A stretch of 64,000 nucleotides of DNA from Pirellulales bacterium (GTDB lineage: Bacteria > Planctomycetota > Planctomycetia > Pirellulales > Thermoguttaceae): assembly GCA_016935315.1 (NCBI GenBank), contig JAFGRD010000016.1, positions 1 through 64,000 of the forward strand. The letters run 5' to 3'. The notes below the pieces were generated by a model, which was not told the DNA's origin, did not search any database, and saw only the letters and a list, made by a program, of their open reading frames with translations. Shown one piece after another: positions 27,433-40,360 of this stretch (the first letter of the stretch is position 1; every line of letters starts with the position of its first letter). A program made the translations under genes and the position numbers.

Positions 27433-28572
27433 ATGCACAACTCGACACACATTCGGCCGCCGCAGGTGCGACGCCGGCCCGCGGCGTTCACGCTGGTGGA
27501 GCTGCTGGTGGTGATCGCCATTATCGGCATCCTGATCGCGATGCTGGTGCCGGCGGTCCAGGCAGCCCGGGAAGCGGCTCGGCGGGCCACCTGCGTCAAC
27601 AACCTCAAGCAGATCGGCATCGCGTTGCAGGCCCACCACGAGGCCCATCTGTGTTTTCCGCCTGGGCTGCCGAGCTGCACGGGCGATACCTGGATTACCG
27701 GCGGGCGCCAGGCCGGCGCGGTCTGCGAGGGCCCGAACTGGGCCTTGGCCATCCTCGACCAGATGGGCGAGACAAAGCTGTTCGAGAACGTTTCCGAGGC
27801 CTGTCTAGCCGACGATAACATGGCCGACCGCGTCGAGCATCACGGCGTGGGCGAGGTCACGCCTTCAGCCTACATCTGCCCGAGTGCCGACAGAATGGTG
27901 CAACCGTTGGGCGGCACCGACGCTTGGGAGCACGAGCACGTCAGCAAGGGAAACTACGCCGCCTGTCTCGGCTCCGACACGTATATCTCCTACCTGCCCG
28001 TTGACCGCGGGGGCAAGGGGCTGCCCAAAACGGCCGGGGCGTTCCCCGTTGTCCTCGTTCCCGGATGGGAGAAGACGACCCAGACCATGGGCGACCCCTC
28101 GCTGCGGGGACTGTGGAAAATGGGTAGCCGCTGGGGCATCAGCGACGCGATGATCACCGACGGGGCATCCAACACGCTGGCCGTCAGCGAAGTGATCGGC
28201 TACGAGAGTGCGGACGATGCCCGCGGCGTCTGGGTGCTGGCCGCGCCGGGCTCCTCGACGTTTACGGCCCACACCAAGCCCAACGCCTACCGCGGCTACG
28301 CGGGGACCCCGGTGTACGATGCGGCGCCCGACGAGAACTACGACCACATTTCGATCTGCGCCGACACGATCGCCTCCGCCACGCGGCTTCACTGCAAGGA
28401 AAACCGCAGCGACGGCGAGCTCTGGGCGGCGGCCCGCAGCCGGCACTCGGGCGGGGTGAACGCGTCGCTGTGCGACGGCTCGGTGCGGTTCGTTGCCGAC
28501 GAGATCAGTCTCGACGTATGGCGGGCCGCGGCCACCCGGTCCGGCGGCGAGTCGGAGCAGTTGCCCGAGTAG
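27433..28572 (+). CDS. DUF1559 (SBP_bac_10-like) pilin-type prepilin protein
   Basis: The 379-residue protein has a type IV pilin-like N-terminus: a short basic leader, then [19 protein letters not shown], the prepilin-peptidase motif and hydrophobic helix. [19 protein letters not shown] follows, the family hallmark that continues into the DUF1559 domain. The C-terminal block ([20 protein letters not shown]) is the conserved H-x-G-G...DGS-V-RF end of the family. Planctomycetes carry many paralogues; their job is unknown but probably envelope- or pseudopilus-related. AGGAG lies 9 bases before the ATG. A longer in-frame ORF reaches back into the 103-bp element but is not likely to be translated. 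Confidence 0.93.
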
Positions 28573-28708
28573 CCACCCGATGCCGCGCGGAATCGCCGCG
28601 CCCCTGGCGGGCAGAGGATCTTTGTGTGTGCGCTGGTTGGGGGTTGTGTATCGGCCCCGGTTGTGCGCTTTCGCTACACGTTACCTACCGAAAGTGCGGC
28701 CCCGGAAG

Positions 28709-30628
28709 TTATCCGCGGAAATACAGGTACGCCGCGAGGATCGCCAGCAACACCACGGCCGAGGCAGCCACGTCGGCAAAACCCCAACTGCCGCGCGACG
28801 CCCGGCGGTGGGCCTCGGTCGTTGTGCCATAGGTCAGGCCGGAGATCTTCTCGTAGTCGGGCTGCCTGGTCATGAAACTGACGCCGATCATCACGGCCGC
28901 GCAGACCGCCAGGATCAGGATGCTGTAATACTGGAAGAACATGTGGTTGACGATCCACAGCAGCGAGCCTTCCGGATAGCCGACGGCGTTGCCGGCCGCG
29001 TCCACCCCGAACCACTCCAGTTTTACCGGCGTGTCGACGCCCAAACGGAACAGCCCCATGATGAAGCCGACGATCAGCGCCGCCAGGCAGCCGGCGCTGT
29101 TGAGCCGTTTCCAGAACACGCCCAGGAAGAACACCACGAAGATCGGCGGCGCCAGGTACGCCTGGACGCCCTGTAGGTAGTCGTAGAGCCCTTTGCCGCC
29201 CTGAATGACCGGGATCCACGCCAGCCCGATGAGCACCATCACCGTGGTGGCGATCCGGCCGATCCAAACGAGTTGATGCTGGGACGTGCTCGGCCGCAGC
29301 CGGGAATAGAAGTCCATGGTAAACAGCGTGGCCGAGGCGTTGAACACGCCGGCCAGCGAGCTCATCAGCGCCGCCAGCAGACCGGCCACAACGATGCCCC
29401 GCACGCCCGGCGGCAGCACGGTCGCCACCAGCAGCGGGAACGCCTTCTGTGCCTCGTCGCGGATGATATGCCCGTTCTCGTCAACCATTACCTGCTGGAT
29501 GCCTTCGGCGCCGCCGCTACTCGCCAGGGCGAAGCAGATCATGCCCGGGATGATGAAGATGAACACCGGCAATAGCTTCAGAAACGAGGCGAAGATGGAG
29601 CCGCGACGGGCCTCTCGCTCGTCGGGGGCGCCCAAGGTTCGCTGCACGATGTACTGGTCGGTGCACCAGTACCAGAGACCGATGACCGGCGCGCAGAACA
29701 GCATGCTCAGCCAGGGATAGTTGTCGTTGAAGTACCACGCTTCCCGCGCGATTTCTCCGGCCGCATTCGTCTCGATCACCGGTGACCAGGTAAAGATGTC
29801 TCCGCGATACAGCGGCTTCCAGAGGTTGAACATCTCCGAGCCGCAGATTTCTCGCAACTGGTCCCAGCCGCCCAGCGCCCGCAGCCCGAAGATCGTCACC
29901 AGAATCGACCCGATGACCAACACCAGCGTCTGCACGGCCTCGGTATAGGCCACGGCCCTCAGCCCGCCGAGGATCGTATACGCCCCCGTCAGCACGATCA
30001 CCAGGATCGAGCCGATCCAGAAGCTGTCCAGCGGGCCGACGCGCAGTTCCGGCAAGAGCACCGAGAAGACGATTCCCCCGGCGAAAATGCCGACCGCGAT
30101 CTTCGTGAGCACGTAGGCCACCAGCGAGATGACCGAAAGGACCCATCGGCTGGTCGGGCTGAAGCGCCGTTCGAGAAACTCGGGCATGGTGAACACTTTC
30201 GAGCGCATGTAGAAGGGCACCAGCACCCAGCCGAGCACCAACAGGCACCAGGCGTGCAACTCGTAGTGGGCCATGGCCACGCCGTCGGTACAGCCCGAGC
30301 CCGCCAGGCCGACCAGGTGCTCCGACCCGATGTTCGAGGCGAAGATCGATGCGCCGACGATCCACCAGCTCAGATTGCGCCCGGCGAGAAAATAGTCGTC
30401 CGCCGTGTCCCGGTTCTTCAGAATCACCCACCAGGCGATCCCCAGCAGCAACACGAAGTAGCCGGCGATCACGGCCCAGTCCACCGGCACCAACCGACCG
30501 GCGTCCTCGGCGGCGGGCACCGCGGCCACTCCCGCTTCGGTATCCAACCCAAAGGCCACGCCGGGGCCGACGATCGCCACCGTAACCAGCAGCAGAGCCA
30601 ACGCAAACAAAGACGTGCGGCCGAGCAT
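28709..30628 (-). CDS. Sodium/solute symporter (SSS family), probable arabinose or related sugar transporter
   Basis: The 639-residue protein has about 14-15 transmembrane helices. An N-terminal signal-like helix precedes a short loop, then WAVIAGYFVLLLGIAWWV. SSS signatures include DYFLAGRNLSWWIVGASIFA and ASNIGSEHLVGLAGSG, as in SGLT-type sugar transporters. AGGAGG lies 7 bases before the ATG. It is the last gene of the minus-strand arabinose cluster, 78 bp after the isomerase, so Na+-coupled uptake of L-arabinose or arabino-oligosaccharides is the natural inference. Specificity is not shown by the sequence itself. Confidence 0.9.
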   Translation of the reverse strand: MLGRTSLFALALLLVTVAIVGPGVAFGLDTEAGVAAVPAAEDAGRLVPVDWAVIAGYFVLLLGIAWWVILKNRDTADDYFLAGRNLSWWIVGASIFASNIGSEHLVGLAGSGCTDGVAMAHYELHAWCLLVLGWVLVPFYMRSKVFTMPEFLERRFSPTSRWVLSVISLVAYVLTKIAVGIFAGGIVFSVLLPELRVGPLDSFWIGSILVIVLTGAYTILGGLRAVAYTEAVQTLVLVIGSILVTIFGLRALGGWDQLREICGSEMFNLWKPLYRGDIFTWSPVIETNAAGEIAREAWYFNDNYPWLSMLFCAPVIGLWYWCTDQYIVQRTLGAPDEREARRGSIFASFLKLLPVFIFIIPGMICFALASSGGAEGIQQVMVDENGHIIRDEAQKAFPLLVATVLPPGVRGIVVAGLLAALMSSLAGVFNASATLFTMDFYSRLRPSTSQHQLVWIGRIATTVMVLIGLAWIPVIQGGKGLYDYLQGVQAYLAPPIFVVFFLGVFWKRLNSAGCLAALIVGFIMGLFRLGVDTPVKLEWFGVDAAGNAVGYPEGSLLWIVNHMFFQYYSILILAVCAAVMIGVSFMTRQPDYEKISGLTYGTTTEAHRRASRGSWGFADVAASAVVLLAILAAYLYFRG

Positions 30629-30706
30629 CAATACGCCTCCTGTTTTCTCACAAAAAGGGGGGAACGTGGGGTGGATCGAGGTGCCAGCCCCGCAGTTCAT
30701 CTTGGT

Positions 30707-32164
30707 TCAAAACGGCACCCGCGGCGTGTAGAGTCCCGGCGTGTCCTGCGTGGCATGGTAGACGTTCATGCCCAAGTAGTTGCCGAAGGCCTCCCACAGC
30801 ACGTTGCCGACGTGCGTTTGCGTGATGGCCACGTGGTGGGGAAACTGCCGCAGGAGCACGTCGCGGTAGAGCCGCTGCAAGTTGGGGATCCGACACCAGC
30901 CATAGCCGCCGAACGTGACCGCCGGGTTGTCCTCGAACGCGCCCTCGGCGACGGCCGCGTGCCAGCCGCAATCGGGGTCCTGGGTGACGCGGAAAAGCGT
31001 CAGCGGCGACGGCCTGGCCACGAACTCGATCGTCGCTTGGGAATCGTCGTAGCTGGCGGCGCCGCTGGAGGCGATAATCTCCTGTACCCCCAGCCTCGGC
31101 GGCGTCTTGGCAAACGACGCGGGAAACACCCCGCAGTGCCAGATATTGGCCAGCTCATCGTCCTCGTTGTGCAGGTTGTTCCAATCGGCCAGGCCGGCCG
31201 GCGAGCCGCTGGCCAGCATCGCCGCGTGCATCGAGAGCGTGCCCATGATGTCCGACTCGCAGGCGCAGGGCGTGCCCTCGTCGCCCAGCCGGCTCATGGT
31301 CGTGCAACTGCACACGCCGTAGTTCGCTTGGATCGACGTCCAGCACTGAATGCCGAAGGCGTCGATCCCGTTGGTTTCCTGGAAGCGGCGCAGGAACAGC
31401 TCGAGCTTGGCGCTGCGCACCACGCTCTGCGGCTTCACCGCCGAAACGTCGGCGTAGCATCCGATCGCCGCTACCAGCTTCTCGACCTCCGGGTCGTCGT
31501 CGGCCAGGGCGTTGGCGCCGGCAATCGCCTCCGACAGATCCATTACCACCGCCGTCGCTCCCAGCCGTTGAAGCTGCTTCTCGTTGTAGCGGCAGGTCCA
31601 GAAGGCGTCGGGCCGGGCGCCGATCTGCGCGTACCGGGCGTTCTTCACGCCCGTGACCACGCGGCAGACGCGCACGAACCAGTCCAGATCGGCCGCGAAC
31701 GCCTCGTCGGACGGGAAGCAGATCGGACGCCGAGCGACCGTGTACTTCACGTCGATCTGTCGCAGCACGTCGCCGATCGACAGCAGCCCGCAGAACGCGT
31801 CGCGCCGCGGCGTGCTCATCGTCAGCACTTCTTCTTCCTGGCAGCCGAAGATCAGCACCGGCACGTCCAGGCCGGCCTTGCGGATCGTCCACGCCACCGA
31901 CTGCTCGTCGCCAAAGTTGACCGCGCCGACCACGATCCCCCGGACGTTCTTCTCGCGGAACAGCCGGGCACAAAGCTCGGCTTCCTGAAGCGATTGGACG
32001 CAGCCGACCTCGGTCTGATCCTCGCCGGGCACCACCACGTCGATGCCCGACTTCTCCATGGCTGCCACGGTCTGCTTCCGCATCTTGGCGGCCAGCTCGG
32101 AGCTGAAGAAGCCGCGGTTGGCGGGTATAAACCCTAGTGTTATCCTATCGGCCAATGCGCTCAT
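30707..32164 (-). CDS. L-fucose/L-arabinose isomerase-fold protein, candidate L-arabinose isomerase
   Basis: The 485-residue protein belongs to the fucose isomerase-like superfamily: an N-terminal Rossmann-like region (IRGIVVGAVNFGDEQS-type block near residue 75), then WTSIQANYGVCSC and EGTPCACESDIMG, where the metal-ligand acidic residues of the family lie, and a C-terminal block with THVGN. No classical araA gene is present between araD, araB and the transporter, and this gene takes that slot. I therefore infer that it converts L-arabinose to L-ribulose, although the family also holds fucose and unknown-ketose isomerases. GGAGA precedes the ATG by about 8 bases. A 103-bp element separates it from araD. 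Confidence 0.78.
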   Translation of the reverse strand: MSALADRITLGFIPANRGFFSSELAAKMRKQTVAAMEKSGIDVVVPGEDQTEVGCVQSLQEAELCARLFREKNVRGIVVGAVNFGDEQSVAWTIRKAGLDVPVLIFGCQEEEVLTMSTPRRDAFCGLLSIGDVLRQIDVKYTVARRPICFPSDEAFAADLDWFVRVCRVVTGVKNARYAQIGARPDAFWTCRYNEKQLQRLGATAVVMDLSEAIAGANALADDDPEVEKLVAAIGCYADVSAVKPQSVVRSAKLELFLRRFQETNGIDAFGIQCWTSIQANYGVCSCTTMSRLGDEGTPCACESDIMGTLSMHAAMLASGSPAGLADWNNLHNEDDELANIWHCGVFPASFAKTPPRLGVQEIIASSGAASYDDSQATIEFVARPSPLTLFRVTQDPDCGWHAAVAEGAFEDNPAVTFGGYGWCRIPNLQRLYRDVLLRQFPHHVAITQTHVGNVLWEAFGNYLGMNVYHATQDTPGLYTPRVPF

Positions 32165-32219
32165 CGGGATATCTCCAGTCCGTCTCGTGGTTCGGTGAAA
32201 AAAGTCCTGAGGGAAGGTC

Positions 32220-32322
32220 TATTGACACTTGCACAGTCCATGCGCGAGGGCGACCAACGGAAGCCCGATTTTTCCGGCCTCCCGTTGGTCGGCCTGGATC
32301 ATTCACAATGCAAACATCAATA
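32220..32322 (+). repeat. 103-bp dispersed MITE-like element, copy C
   Basis: It begins TATTGACACTTGCAC and ends GCAAACATCAATA, with a central stem having one mismatch (AACGGAAG against CTCCCGTT). Its right end lies inside the 3' end of araD and supplies that gene's last Tyr and stop codon. It sits within the araD-isomerase intergenic region of the likely operon. Confidence 0.85.
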
Positions 32323-33015
32323 GGGTGTTTGTCCATAGTAGGCATCGGCGCCGTGCTTGCGCCGGTAGTGCTTGTTAAGAACGTACGGCTCCAGCGGCGG
32401 GGCGTCGCCGCGGATCGTCAGCGTGCCGAGCGCCATCTCGGCCACCGCTTCCAGCGCCACCGCGTTGTTGACCGACGCCGCGGCGTCCGGGCCCCACGTA
32501 AACGGCGCATGGCCCGCGACCAGCACCGCGGGCCTCTCCAGAGGGTGAAGCCCCGCGAACCGCTCCACGATCACCTGCCCGGTGTTCGCTTCGTACGCCT
32601 CCTCGACCTCCCGCGGCGAGAGCGGTCGCGTCACGGGAACCGGGCCGAAAAAATGATCCGCGTGGGTCGTCCCCAAACAGGGAATCTCCAAGCGGGCCTG
32701 GGCGAAGATCGTGGCACACCGGCTGTGCGTGTGGGTGATTCCCCCAATCCCCTCGAAGTGCCGATAGAGCAACACGTGGCTGGGCGTGTCGGACGAAGGG
32801 CGCAGATCGCCCTCGACCCGATTCCCCTCCAGGTCCACCACGACCATCTGCTCGGGGCTGAGTGCTTCGTAAGGCACGCCGCTGGGCTTGATCACCACCA
32901 GACTGCGATCGGCCGAAATGCCGCTCACGTTGCCCCAAGTCAGCGTGACCAGACCCGTCTCGGCCAGCAGCCGGTTGGCGCGACAGACGTCGTTGCGAAG
33001 CTCGTCCAGGTTCAT
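32317..33015 (-). CDS. araD: L-ribulose-5-phosphate 4-epimerase
   Basis: The class II aldolase-fold enzyme converts L-ribulose 5-phosphate to D-xylulose 5-phosphate in the L-arabinose pathway. The 232-residue length equals that of E. coli AraD (about 231). Visible features are LTWGNVSG, KPSGVPYE, the zinc-binding THTHSRCATIFAQ, TTHADHFFG with the catalytic Asp, and AGHAPFTWG with the third His ligand. The end (HGADAYYGQTPY) is in the usual place, but its final codons come from the 103-bp element. It lies 44 bp after araB on the same strand, so the two are likely cotranscribed. Confidence 0.95.
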   Translation of the reverse strand: MNLDELRNDVCRANRLLAETGLVTLTWGNVSGISADRSLVVIKPSGVPYEALSPEQMVVVDLEGNRVEGDLRPSSDTPSHVLLYRHFEGIGGITHTHSRCATIFAQARLEIPCLGTTHADHFFGPVPVTRPLSPREVEEAYEANTGQVIVERFAGLHPLERPAVLVAGHAPFTWGPDAAASVNNAVALEAVAEMALGTLTIRGDAPPLEPYVLNKHYRRKHGADAYYGQTPY

Positions 33016-33059
33016 CCTCGGCCTTCTTCGTCAGGACCCGCCGGAAGACAAGTTGGGGT

Positions 33060-34769
33060 CTATTTCTTGCGGAGTCCCTTCCGTACCCGATCGCGCATCG
33101 CGATCAGGTCTTTCATCACGCGATCCAGCCTGCCGCTGAATCCGGCGGTGCCGAAGGCGTCGTGCAGGGTGCGGTAGAGCCCGTATAATTCGGCGTAGAC
33201 CTTCGCGGCTGCCTTGCGGGGTCGGTAGACCGTGGGCTTGACGCCGGTCATCTTCTTCTGCGCCTGCTCGGTCTTCTTGTAAGCGCCGCCCACGACCGCC
33301 CCGAAAATGGCCGACCCCAGGGCACAGGTTTGGGCCGAGCGGCTGACTTTCATCGGCCGGTCGCAGACGTCGGCGTAGATCTGCATCACGAAGGCGTTCT
33401 TCTCGGCGATGCCTCCGCAATTGACCACCTCCCGGACCCCCACGCCGTACTCTTCGAACCGCTTGATGATCGTCAGCGCGCCGAAGGCCGTCGCCTCGAC
33501 CAGCGCCCGGTAGACCTCTGGGGCCGTCGTGTGCAAGGTCTGCCCCACCAGCATGCCGCTCAGCAGCGGATCGACCAGGATCGTCCGGTTTCCGTTGTTC
33601 CAATCCAGGGCCAGCAGGCCGCTCTCGCCCGGCTTCAGCTTGTCGGCCTCCTTGGTGAGGTTCACGTGCGGATCGCCCTTGGCCGTGTACTTCGCCGGGG
33701 CAAGGTGCGAAACGAACCAGTTGAAGATGTCGCCCACGGCCGATTGCCCCGCCTCGAGCCCGTACATGCCGGGAATAATCGAGCCGGGCACAATGCCGCA
33801 CAGTCCGGGAATGTCGGGCAGCTCGGTCTCCATCGGCGCGACCATCATGTCGCAGGTGCTGGTGCCGATGATCTTCACCAGCGTGCCCGGCTTGATACCC
33901 GCTCCGACCGCACCCGTATGGGCGTCGAAAGCCCCAACGGCCACGGGCAGCCCCGGCGGCAAGCCCACTTTCTTGGCCACCTCGGCGGTCAGTTCACCGG
34001 CCTTCTGGTCGGCCGGAACGGCTCCGGCCGAGTAGTGGTCGCGAACGCGGCCCAATCCGCTGCCCAGTTTCGCCAAAAAGCCCTTGCTCGGCAAACCCCC
34101 CCATTGTTCGTGGTACATGGCCTTGTGGCCGGCCGCACAGATGCCGCGGGGTAGTGTATCGGGATCGAGGTTTCCGGTGAGGAAGGCGGGGATGAAGTCG
34201 GCCAACTCGACCCAGGCGTAGGCGGCGTCGAAGACCTTCGGCGCGGTCCGCTTGCAGTGGAGAATCTTCGACCAATACCATTCAGAACTGTAGGTGCCGC
34301 CGCACTTCGACAGGTAGTTCTCCCGGCTGCCGGCGGCCTTGGCTGTGATCTCGGCCGCTTCGGCATGGCCCGTGTGATCCTTCCACAGCCAGGCATGGGC
34401 CGCCAGGTTCTTTTCGAAGGCCGGCTTCATCGCCAGCGGGGTCCCTTCGCGGTCGACGGGGATCGGCGTCGAGCCGGTCGTATCGATGCCAATGCCGATC
34501 ACATTTTCGGGTCGGAAGCCGGGCTTCCTCTTGGCGGCCGCAACCGCCGCCCGCACCGAGCGGTAGAAGCCCTCGATGTAGTCGGCCGGGTTCTGCCGTG
34601 CCAGGTTCGGGTCTTTCGGGTCGAGCAGGATGCCGTCCTTGCCGCTGGGATAGTCATAGACATCGGTGGCGACCTCCGTACCGTCGGCCACGTCGACAAT
34701 CAACGCCCGGACGCTGTTCGTCCCATAATCCACGCCAATCGCAAACCGCCTCACTGTAGATTTGGCCAT
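33060..34769 (-). CDS. araB: Ribulokinase (FGGY carbohydrate kinase)
   Basis: Phosphorylates L-ribulose to L-ribulose 5-phosphate with ATP. The 569-residue length is usual for AraB. The N-terminus IGVDYGTNSVRALIVD is the ATPase-fold first motif, GIGIDTTGSTPIPVD the second, and GAFDAHTGAVGAGI carries the catalytic Asp of the FGGY family. NCGGIAEKNAFVMQIYADV is the C-terminal signature. The ATG is preceded by AGGGCGGAC. First gene of the minus-strand arabinose operon, divergent from the arabinofuranosidase gene across a 377-bp regulatory region. Confidence 0.96.
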   Translation of the reverse strand: MAKSTVRRFAIGVDYGTNSVRALIVDVADGTEVATDVYDYPSGKDGILLDPKDPNLARQNPADYIEGFYRSVRAAVAAAKRKPGFRPENVIGIGIDTTGSTPIPVDREGTPLAMKPAFEKNLAAHAWLWKDHTGHAEAAEITAKAAGSRENYLSKCGGTYSSEWYWSKILHCKRTAPKVFDAAYAWVELADFIPAFLTGNLDPDTLPRGICAAGHKAMYHEQWGGLPSKGFLAKLGSGLGRVRDHYSAGAVPADQKAGELTAEVAKKVGLPPGLPVAVGAFDAHTGAVGAGIKPGTLVKIIGTSTCDMMVAPMETELPDIPGLCGIVPGSIIPGMYGLEAGQSAVGDIFNWFVSHLAPAKYTAKGDPHVNLTKEADKLKPGESGLLALDWNNGNRTILVDPLLSGMLVGQTLHTTAPEVYRALVEATAFGALTIIKRFEEYGVGVREVVNCGGIAEKNAFVMQIYADVCDRPMKVSRSAQTCALGSAIFGAVVGGAYKKTEQAQKKMTGVKPTVYRPRKAAAKVYAELYGLYRTLHDAFGTAGFSGRLDRVMKDLIAMRDRVRKGLRKK

Positions 34770-34972
34770 TTTGTCCGCCCTTTGGAGTCCTGGAGTCCGA
34801 GACCTGGGTGCCTGTGGATGTCTGCACTGCCGATGCGCAGGCGTCGGCAGAATTCGTCATTTGACCCGATTCGATGCAGAGTTCAACCCCCCCCGGTCGG
34901 CCCGACTTGACGTTGCCGCTGCTAATGTCTATTCCAGTTTGGCGAGGGCCTCGCAGCCGTCAAGCGAATTCC

Positions 34973-35040
34973 GCGCAAACGATCCTGAACTTTGCGCAAA
35001 GTCGAATACTCTGCGCAAACTTGATAAACTGTTGCGCGAA
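34973..35040. promoter_or_regulatory. Four phased GCGCAAA direct repeats in the araB / arabinofuranosidase divergent region
   Basis: GCGCAAA occurs at 34973-34979, 34994-35000 and 35013-35019, and as GCGCGAA at 35034-35040. Start-to-start distances are 21, 19 and 21 bp, i.e. about two helical turns, so the boxes lie on one DNA face. This is the arrangement expected for a cooperative activator or repressor; AraC half-sites also repeat every 21 bp. No regulator gene is seen in the window. The rest of 34770-35146 shows only an 18-bp tandem repeat nearer the plus-strand gene. Confidence 0.55.
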
Positions 35041-35081
35041 GTTGGCTGGCATGAACACGACGGGTCGCGTAGGATGGAATG

Positions 35082-35117
35082 CCCGCGTTCGGAAACACTC
35101 CCGCGTTCGGAAACACT
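35082..35117 (+). repeat. Exact 18-bp tandem duplication upstream of the arabinofuranosidase gene
   Basis: CCCGCGTTCGGAAACACT is present twice head to tail, 30 bp before the ATG at 35147, in the likely 5' untranslated region. It could be a slippage duplication or an operator doublet. Confidence 0.8.
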
Positions 35118-35146
35118 GCTGAACTACCAATCGAAAGGAACCAAGC

Positions 35147-37552
35147 ATGCAACGTCACACGCTTCTGCCGATCATGCTCGTTTTGCTCGCGGCGCTGTTG
35201 TGGCCGGCCGCTGCTACCGGGGCCGCGACCGACGACCAAGACAAACAGGCCGACAACCTCTTACCCAATCCGTCGTTCGAGCAAGAGGCCGATCGCAAGC
35301 CGGCCGAATGGAAGACCGAGGGCTGGGGCGGCAAGGGGACCTTCACCTACGCCACGGCCGGACGAACCGGAAGGCGCAGCCTGATGATCACCTCCGAAGA
35401 AGGGGCCGACATCGCCTGGTGCGCCACGGTGCCGGTCGAGCCCCACACCACCTATCGGCTTTCGGGCTGGATCAAGACGGAGAACGTCCGGGGCGCCAAG
35501 GGGGCGTTGCTGAACCTACACAATATCCAGCCCGCCCAGACGGATGCCGTCTCGGGTACCCACGATTGGACGCAAGTCGAAGTGCTCTTCGACACGGGCG
35601 GCAACGACAGCGTGCAGGTCAACTGCCTGCTGGGTGGTTGGGGCCAGGCCACCGGTAAAGCCTGGTACGACGACGTCTGTCTGGAGAAGCTCTCCATGGC
35701 CGACTGGAAGCCCGAGGTGGCGATCGACGCCGCTAAGATCGGCGAACCGATCTCCAAGTACATCTACGGCCAGTTCATCGAGCACCTCGGCCGCTGCATC
35801 TACGGCGGCATCTGGGCCGAGATGCTCGAGGACCGCAAGTTCTACTTCCCCGTCACGGCAGACTACGCCCCCTATCGGTCGCTGCAGAACACGGACTTTC
35901 CGGTGGTGGGAGCCTCGCCTTGGCAGATCATCGGAGACGGTGATTCCGTGGGCATGGTGCGGGAGGATTCGTTCGTCGGGGAGCACACCCCGTCGGCGGA
36001 GCCGGGAAGCGGCATCCGCCAACGTGACCTGGCCCTGGTCAAAGGCAAGCAGTACGTCGGCTACGTCTGGGTGAAACCGGCCCGGGACAGCACGACGGTG
36101 CAAGTCGTGGTGCGCTGGGGCGAAGGGTCTGCCGACATGTTCCGGCATACCTTCACCAACGCCGCCGACCGCTATCAGAAGTCGTCCTTCCGCTTCACGG
36201 CGGGTGCCGACACGGACAAGGGCGTTCTGGAGATTCAAGTATCCGACGGCGGGCCATGCCTGGTGGGAACGGCTTCGCTGATGCCGGCCGACAACGTCGA
36301 CGGGATGCGGGCCGACACGCTGAAGCTGCTCAAAGAGCTGAACTCGCCCGTGTATCGCTGGCCCGGCGGCAATTTTGTCAGCGGCTACGACTGGAAAGAC
36401 GGCATCGGCGATCGCGACCGCCGGCCACCGCGGAAGAACCCGGCCTGGACCGGCGTCGAGCAGAACGACTTCGGGCTCGACGAGTTCATCCACTTCTGCC
36501 GCGTGTTGGATACCGAGCCGTATATTGCCGTCAACAGCGGCCAGGGCGGGGTGGAAAACGCCGTGGCGGAGCTGCAATACGCCAACGGTGACCCCGACAC
36601 GCCCATGGGCAAGCTCCGCGCGAAAAACGGCCATGCCGAGCCCTATCGGGTCAAGTGGTGGGGGATCGGCAACGAAATGTACGGCGGCTGGCAGCTTGGC
36701 CATATGCCATTGGAAGACTACATCAAGAAGCATAACGTGTTTGCCGAGGCTTTTCGCGCGGAAGACCCCTCGATCAAGCTGGTGGCCGTCGGCGACGCGG
36801 GCCGCTGGAGCGAGGGCATGATGCAGCACTGCGCCGATCACATGGACCTGATCAGCGAGCACTTCTATCGCGGGGAAAGCCCCGGGCTGGCCTCCCACGT
36901 CCGCCAGATTCCCGAAGCGGTCCGCGGCAAGGCTGACGCCCATCGCCGCTATCGCCGGCAGTTCGATTCGCTGGCGGGCAAAGACATCCGCATCGCCCTG
37001 GACGAGTGGAACTTCTGGTACGGGCCGCATGCCTTCGGCGAGTTGGGCACCCGCTATTTCCTTAAAGACGCCCTGGGGATTGCTGCCGGGCTGAACGAAT
37101 ACGCCCGCCAGAGCGACATCATGTTCATGGCCAATTACGCTCAGACGGTCAACGTCATCGGCTGCATCAAAACCAGCAAGACGGCGGCCGCCTTTGCCAC
37201 GACCGGCCTGGTGCTGAAGCTCTACCGCGAGCATTTCGGCGTGCTGCCGCTGGCCGTGACCACCACGCAGCCGTTGGACGTGATGGCGGCCCTGACCGAG
37301 GACCACAAGACGCTTACCGTGGCGATCGTCAACCCCACGATGAAGCAGCTCGACATTCCGCTGACCCTCGACGGTGTGAAACTCGTCGGCACCGGCCGCC
37401 GCTGGCAGATCGCCGGCGACGACCCGATGGCCTACAACGAGCCGGGCAAGCCGCCCAAGGTCGCCATCGAAGAGCAGGCGGTTTCCGGCGTGCAAAACGC
37501 GCTCTCGGTTGCCCCGTGCAGCGTGACGCTGTACGCGTTGCCGGTCGAGTGA
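35147..37552 (+). CDS. abfA: Secreted alpha-L-arabinofuranosidase (GH51) with N-terminal carbohydrate-binding module
   Basis: Removes terminal arabinofuranosyl groups from arabinan or arabinoxylan. Of 801 residues, 1-28 form a signal peptide. About 30-185 is a CBM4/9-like beta-sandwich (NLLPNPSFEQEADRKP). The GH51 domain opens at SKYIYGQFIEHLGRCIYGG. The acid/base Glu510 lies in WWGIGNEMYGG and the nucleophile Glu620 in IALDEWNFWYG. A C-terminal beta domain follows, and the total exceeds the usual GH51 core of about 500 residues. AAAGGAA precedes the ATG. The divergent araB-araD-isomerase-symporter arm provides uptake and catabolism of the released arabinose. Confidence 0.94.
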   Translation: MQRHTLLPIMLVLLAALLWPAAATGAATDDQDKQADNLLPNPSFEQEADRKPAEWKTEGWGGKGTFTYATAGRTGRRSLMITSEEGADIAWCATVPVEPHTTYRLSGWIKTENVRGAKGALLNLHNIQPAQTDAVSGTHDWTQVEVLFDTGGNDSVQVNCLLGGWGQATGKAWYDDVCLEKLSMADWKPEVAIDAAKIGEPISKYIYGQFIEHLGRCIYGGIWAEMLEDRKFYFPVTADYAPYRSLQNTDFPVVGASPWQIIGDGDSVGMVREDSFVGEHTPSAEPGSGIRQRDLALVKGKQYVGYVWVKPARDSTTVQVVVRWGEGSADMFRHTFTNAADRYQKSSFRFTAGADTDKGVLEIQVSDGGPCLVGTASLMPADNVDGMRADTLKLLKELNSPVYRWPGGNFVSGYDWKDGIGDRDRRPPRKNPAWTGVEQNDFGLDEFIHFCRVLDTEPYIAVNSGQGGVENAVAELQYANGDPDTPMGKLRAKNGHAEPYRVKWWGIGNEMYGGWQLGHMPLEDYIKKHNVFAEAFRAEDPSIKLVAVGDAGRWSEGMMQHCADHMDLISEHFYRGESPGLASHVRQIPEAVRGKADAHRRYRRQFDSLAGKDIRIALDEWNFWYGPHAFGELGTRYFLKDALGIAAGLNEYARQSDIMFMANYAQTVNVIGCIKTSKTAAAFATTGLVLKLYREHFGVLPLAVTTTQPLDVMAALTEDHKTLTVAIVNPTMKQLDIPLTLDGVKLVGTGRRWQIAGDDPMAYNEPGKPPKVAIEEQAVSGVQNALSVAPCSVTLYALPVE

Positions 37553-37568
37553 AGGCGAGCCAACGGAA

Positions 37569-37600
37569 CGAGGCCCGCAAGTTTCGACCTGCGGGCCTCG
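37569..37600. terminator. Bidirectional hairpin between convergent genes
   Basis: Perfect 11-bp stem CGAGGCCCGCA (37569-37579) with TGCGGGCCTCG (37590-37600), loop of 10. There is no good T-tract on either side, so it may act as a Rho-assisted or bidirectional end signal. Confidence 0.55.
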
Positions 37601-37651
37601 TGACGTCTGTTTCCGCTGCCGGGCCGACAGCGGCCGGCAGCCGGGCTGCAG

Positions 37652-40360
<2,709 letters not shown>

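Follow-up and report, generated by a model that had tools for sequence, protein, structure and literature searches.

Organisation of the arabinose locus

Which enzyme isomerises L-arabinose in this Pirellulales bacterium, given that the araA position of its arabinose gene run is held by a 485-residue protein of a different sequence family? The source genome comprises 7.1 Mb in 172 contigs (95.3% complete), and the window, the whole stretch of DNA analysed here, is the first 64 kb of contig 21. Hereafter ISO denotes the 485-residue isomerase-superfamily protein encoded at 30707-32164 on the minus strand, while L and G numbers refer to loci and genomes, respectively. All five reading frames of the run were present. 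AraB, AraD, ISO and an SSS symporter follow one another in transcription order on the minus strand, with intergenic gaps of 6, 152 and 44 bases read from the symporter end, and a GH51-type gene is divergent from them. The ribulokinase AraB (33060-34769, minus strand) carried FGGY_N/C domains and scored 659 bits on NF003154 (cut-off 428), falling marginally below the TIGR01234 cut-off (578.9 vs 583.25). The L-ribulose-5-phosphate 4-epimerase AraD (32317-33015, minus strand) matched PF00596 (Aldolase_II) and NF006047 (322 vs cut-off 257) and was below the cut-off of TIGR00760 (302 vs 389). The GH51-type alpha-L-arabinofuranosidase with a CBM_4_9 domain (35147-37552, plus strand) matched PF06964 (Alpha-L-AF_C, 73.7 bits), PF22848 (33.5 bits) and PF02018 (45.1 bits), and was below the cut-off of NF051901 (251 vs 625). 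The SSS-family sodium/solute symporter (28709-30700, minus strand) matched PF00474 (SSF, 277.7 bits) and TIGR00813 (332.7 vs cut-off 184), and is probably an L-arabinose importer. These frames and domain matches confirm the original prediction that AraB, AraD, the symporter and GH51 make up a complete pathway apart from AraA.

The symporter shared 74% identity with its counterpart in an ISO-AraB-AraD-SSS run of Roseithermus sacchariphilus (L154). According to PMC7409140, arabinose use by the Roseithermus type strain was not reported, so this organism lends no phenotype support to the role of ISO.

In our view this organism very probably uses ISO as its L-arabinose isomerase, in a non-orthologous replacement of AraA. 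In the proposed pathway, whose minus-strand genes may be co-transcribed, the GH51-type enzyme would release L-arabinose, the symporter would import it and ISO would interconvert L-arabinose and L-ribulose; AraB would then convert L-ribulose to L-ribulose 5-phosphate, which AraD would epimerise to D-xylulose 5-phosphate.

A gap of 377 bases (34770-35146) separates araB from the divergently oriented GH51-type gene. In it, an inverted-repeat search found a perfect 14-base palindrome (34989-35002) whose core recurs in two imperfect copies (span 34989-35043); these repeats may be candidate operators, perhaps of a local kind. Allowing at most one mismatch, the palindrome occurs at one place genome-wide, and no wider regulon was found in the genome at that stringency. 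At up to three mismatches there were 3 matches in the window, a number no higher than expected by chance, since 21 of 100 shuffled sequences reached it. No sigma-70-like promoter was seen across 28400-37800.

Sequence, predicted fold and conserved residues of ISO

The sole Pfam match of ISO at E 0.001 was the C-terminal domain Fucose_iso_C (PF02952, 52.7 bits, cut-off 29.3), whereas the N-terminal domains 1 and 2 of FucI (PF07881/PF07882/PF02952) gave no match at this threshold. Its sole NCBIfam match was the sulfoquinovose isomerase (SftI) model NF048012, which it covered over nearly its full length but at 119.3 bits against a curated cut-off of 700. Classical AraA (PF02610/PF24856/PF11762, NF002795) was not recognised in ISO: AraA_N, AraA_central and Arabinose_Iso_C gave no match at E 0.001, and NF002795 was also unmatched. 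A sequence search of solved structures returned nothing for ISO alone (E 0.1) or for a 17-row profile (E 10). Homologues at 55-72% identity occur in records labelled Gemmatimonadetes, Armatimonadetes, Planctomycetota and Phycisphaerae, which argues against a chance reading frame.

An AlphaFold2 model of ISO built from 17 sequences reached a mean pLDDT of 86. Its best PDB matches were L-arabinose isomerases (Z 30.6-32.6 over 439-451 residues, 12-16% identity in the structural alignment), and fucose and D-arabinose isomerases scored lower (Z 27.3-28.1). The top 19 rows were all arabinose and fucose isomerases (Z 27.3-32.6) and the next was an unrelated protein at Z 10.2. By its predicted whole-length fold, ISO would thus be placed in the L-fucose/L-arabinose isomerase superfamily, a shared fold that in itself shows no function. 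The earlier description of ISO as fucose isomerase-like is based on its C-terminal domain, whereas the predicted fold is nearest to L-arabinose isomerases. ISO also differs from FucI in length (485 vs about 590 residues).

Six residues, E303, D305, D327, H343, H443 and H444, did not vary across the 98 aligned rows, a set that contains ISO and leaves out two very long-branch rows of the original 100. The motif and its spacing follow AraA (ExD, acid, H, HH), except that Asp327 replaces the second Glu, as in FucI, where the Glu and Asp are likewise 24 residues apart. Only short, weak matches emerged when the profile of ISO was aligned with those of AraA and FucI, so the correspondence of residues is drawn from motif and spacing. 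If the corresponding residues of AraA and FucI have the catalytic roles that we assume, a divalent metal would be held in ISO by E303, D327 and H444, with H343 nearby.

Search for a classical AraA

A profile search of the genome with PF02610 (AraA_N) gave no match in this 95.3% complete assembly; the same search matched 5 of 14 control genomes, E. coli and B. subtilis among them. When a full-length AraA from a genome of the same family was compared with this genome, a single place was matched, a paralogue of 27% identity on contig 5, and no classical AraA was recovered. The original prediction had named a classical araA elsewhere in the genome as a finding that would refute it, and these searches revealed none.

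The contig 5 paralogue, an AraA-like protein of 491 residues, is encoded at L199:2877-4349 (minus strand). It matched Arabinose_Iso_C with 40 bits (cut-off 25) and NF002795 weakly (77.9 vs cut-off 622). Its surroundings, up to about 5 kb away, include an iron alcohol dehydrogenase and a GH106 rhamnosidase domain; the adjoining 521-residue frame reads like an SSS symporter from its sequence, and no ara genes were seen beside the paralogue.

The missing AraA is by itself a weak argument. In an order-level set of 146 genomes, AraB was over the cut-off in 44, AraA in 19 and both in 18, and 26 of the 44 AraB-bearing genomes lacked AraA. A strong ISO (E < 1e-60) was present in 6 of these 26 and neither protein in the other 20, so we dropped AraA absence as a stand-alone argument. 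Either these 20 genomes have other solutions or their AraB serves other ends. The replacement reading stands on better footing than the absence of araA, because ISO takes the slot of AraA and the swap recurs: L042 and L044, from the same order, read AraB-AraD-AraA in transcription order, whereas the window locus and L111 read AraB-AraD-ISO.

Other proteins were observed near AraB or AraB-like kinases in this order. G130 and G043, two genomes of the source's family with AraB and without AraA or strong ISO, encode a xylose-isomerase-like TIM-barrel protein (PF01261) near AraB (L094:9240-10196, minus strand; L096:12481-13464, plus strand), which is perhaps a further AraA substitute. In L099, L102, L104, L107 and L109, a protein of about 555 residues with a weak Fucose_iso_C match adjoins an AraB-like kinase that is 33-38% identical to the window AraB across these five order loci. 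The same kind of protein adjoins AraB itself in L042, and the source genome has its own copy (L200:904-2568, plus strand).

Recurrence of ISO relatives beside AraB

From a scan of bacterial and archaeal genomes we took the best 80 of at least 573 ISO relatives. In 20 of these 80 outside loci, ISO and AraB shared a strand and lay no more than 2 kb apart, and AraD was present too in 16 (on the opposite strand in L144 and L175). Split transketolase genes were near ISO in 14 loci, and representatives of the two transketolase clusters matched the two halves of transketolase models. The remaining 46 loci, some on short contigs, had neither context. No locus among those compared combined both contexts, and no AraA match was found within the 80 loci, a set that includes some short ones. 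Gene calling missed genes in some loci, and L071 was also read from raw ORFs; L090 (the source genome's own contig 163) had no ISO match above 100 bits and was left out of the context table. Among the 19 ISO loci from the same order, 10 were transketolase-linked and 2 AraB-linked (L078 and L079); the latter two belong to another family of the order and read AraD-AraB-ISO-GH51 along the locus. The 20 AraB-linked records carry the phylum labels Gemmatimonadota, Chloroflexota, Bacteroidota, Planctomycetota, Bacillota, Acidobacteriota, Rhodothermota and Pseudomonadota, although many are metagenome bins and single labels may err.

For AraA and AraB we then searched the genomes of 50 loci selected from the 80 by their context, or 49 once that of L166 was left out; how complete these genomes are is not stated. 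AraA was present in 2 of the 20 genomes with AraB-linked ISO (G148 and G149) and not found in the other 18, whereas 12 of the 13 searched genomes with transketolase-linked ISO had it (Fisher p = 3e-6, a value that ignores relatedness, with the two contexts falling largely in different clades). Among the 16 genomes in neither group, AraA_N was strong in G187 and G193 and weak, though over the cut-off, in G169, G189 and G194. The co-occurrence of ISO with AraB in 20 of 80 outside loci, with AraA lacking from 18 of those 20 genomes, strengthens the reading of ISO as a replacement. The original proposal of a non-orthologous AraA replacement is accordingly supported by this recurrence beside AraB together with the failure to find AraA.

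The clade of ISO within the superfamily

A tree of 100 rows was computed by quick search with SH-aLRT support only and rooted on two very long branches; it carries a warning about long branches meeting, and the AraB-linked label needs 13 changes on it. ISO paired with L111 (SH-aLRT 98) within an 8-row window clade (84). A 40-row group (95) holding the other 21 AraB-linked rows and a 30-row group (96) holding all 24 transketolase-linked rows were both separate from this clade. The context of the main AraB-linked clade thus bears only indirectly on ISO, because the window clade stands apart.

L111 is the nearest relative of ISO among the best 80 of at least 573 (72% identity). Its locus reads from a ROK-family protein through AraB, AraD and ISO to a protein of unknown kind, a beta-L-arabinofuranosidase of family GH127 and a GH51-like protein with 26% identity to the GH51-type protein of the window. 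AraB neighbours ISO in 2 of the 8 window-clade rows (ISO itself and L111) and not in L071 or L112-L116, of which L115 begins at a contig edge; this counts against replacement, as does L113, in which a protein encoded a short way downstream of ISO has an Alpha_L_fucos match (74.7 bits). AraB was over the cut-off in G146, G167, G168, G170 and G089, all of which have a window-clade ISO as their single strong ISO, and AraA_N was over the cut-off in none of these five. Four of them (G089, G167, G168 and G170) are among the six genomes whose window-clade ISO is not beside AraB. In G166, AraB was not over the cut-off. G169 has four ISO-like genes in all at E 1e-40: its AraB-AraD run (L205:5442-9441) carries an ISO of the main AraB-linked kind (37%), and the window-clade ISO lies elsewhere (L115). 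Its AraA_N match clears the cut-off with 39.6 bits and covers part of the domain; both this match and the ISO in the AraB-AraD run count against replacement.

We compared ISO at 30 positions that separate the 21 AraB-linked from the 24 transketolase-linked relatives. ISO shared 12 with the AraB-linked set, 3 with the transketolase-linked set and 15 with neither.

Alternative roles and alternative isomerases

The split transketolase presumably marks a D-apiose pathway, a sugar on which Carter et al. reportedly worked, and we take the D-apiose isomerase ApsI to belong to the sequence family of ISO. In the D-apiose cluster of Pectobacterium, the isomerase gene for this sugar is named apsI (PMC13001218, which also cites that work). 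On a Sodalis plasmid, transketolase halves, a sugar ABC transporter and an FGGY kinase surround an ISO relative named only "L-fucose/L-arabinose isomerase family protein", a label that several ISO relatives bear in public plasmid records and that states no substrate. ISO might act mainly on D-apiose, D-arabinose or L-fucose and be present in the run for another reason, with a different enzyme isomerising L-arabinose. We regard this as unlikely. In its favour, ISO is 36-40% identical to the relatives beside split transketolase genes, which by context are probably of the ApsI type, its sole Pfam match is Fucose_iso_C, 6 of the 8 window-clade rows are not beside AraB, and one of them, L113, has the alpha-L-fucosidase match nearby. 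However, the five genes of the window run include no transketolase and show no linkage to a kinase and split transketolase, and ISO falls in a different clade from the transketolase-linked relatives. AraD scored 322 bits on an AraD model, whereas no fuculose-phosphate aldolase model gave more than 78, ISO shares four times as many discriminating positions with AraB-linked as with transketolase-linked relatives (12 vs 3 of 30), and 12 of 13 transketolase-linked genomes keep AraA.

Another enzyme of the same genome could also fill the role. That the contig 5 paralogue is the real L-arabinose isomerase and ISO an accessory is very improbable: it matches Arabinose_Iso_C and, weakly, the L-arabinose isomerase model NF002795, but instead of ara genes it has the rhamnosidase domain, the alcohol dehydrogenase and the SSS-like frame nearby. 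Close copies of it (E < 1e-80) occur in 12 order genomes, of which 6 have AraB and 3 of these 6 also AraA, and it has no match in G089, G018 and G035, where ISO and AraB are both present. It is extremely unlikely that a classical araA sits in the missing part of the assembly. The 172 contigs and the completeness of 95.3% leave room for such a gene, but ISO fills the slot held by AraA in L042 and L044, and no AraA was found in 18 of the 20 outside genomes that pair ISO with AraB.

Implications

ISO as the L-arabinose isomerase thus remains the preferred reading; it would share with AraA the operon position, the predicted fold and the residue pattern. It is conceivable, though we hold this only tentatively, that L-arabinose isomerases other than AraA arose at least twice in the superfamily, in the lineage of the window and in the main AraB-linked lineages, separately taking the araA slot, and that much bacterial catabolism of the sugar uses an unrecognised family. 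On this same tentative two-origin reading, the main AraB-linked lineage would comprise Chloroflexota, Acidobacteriota, Planctomycetota and others. Among the papers listed, judged mostly by titles and the beginnings of abstracts, we found no description of this replacement of AraA. If ISO has the proposed role, genome-based calls of L-arabinose use that rely on araA would overlook organisms from several phyla, an isomerase family that bears a generic name would gain a substrate, and a second enzyme family would stand beside AraA, itself studied for the production of D-tagatose.
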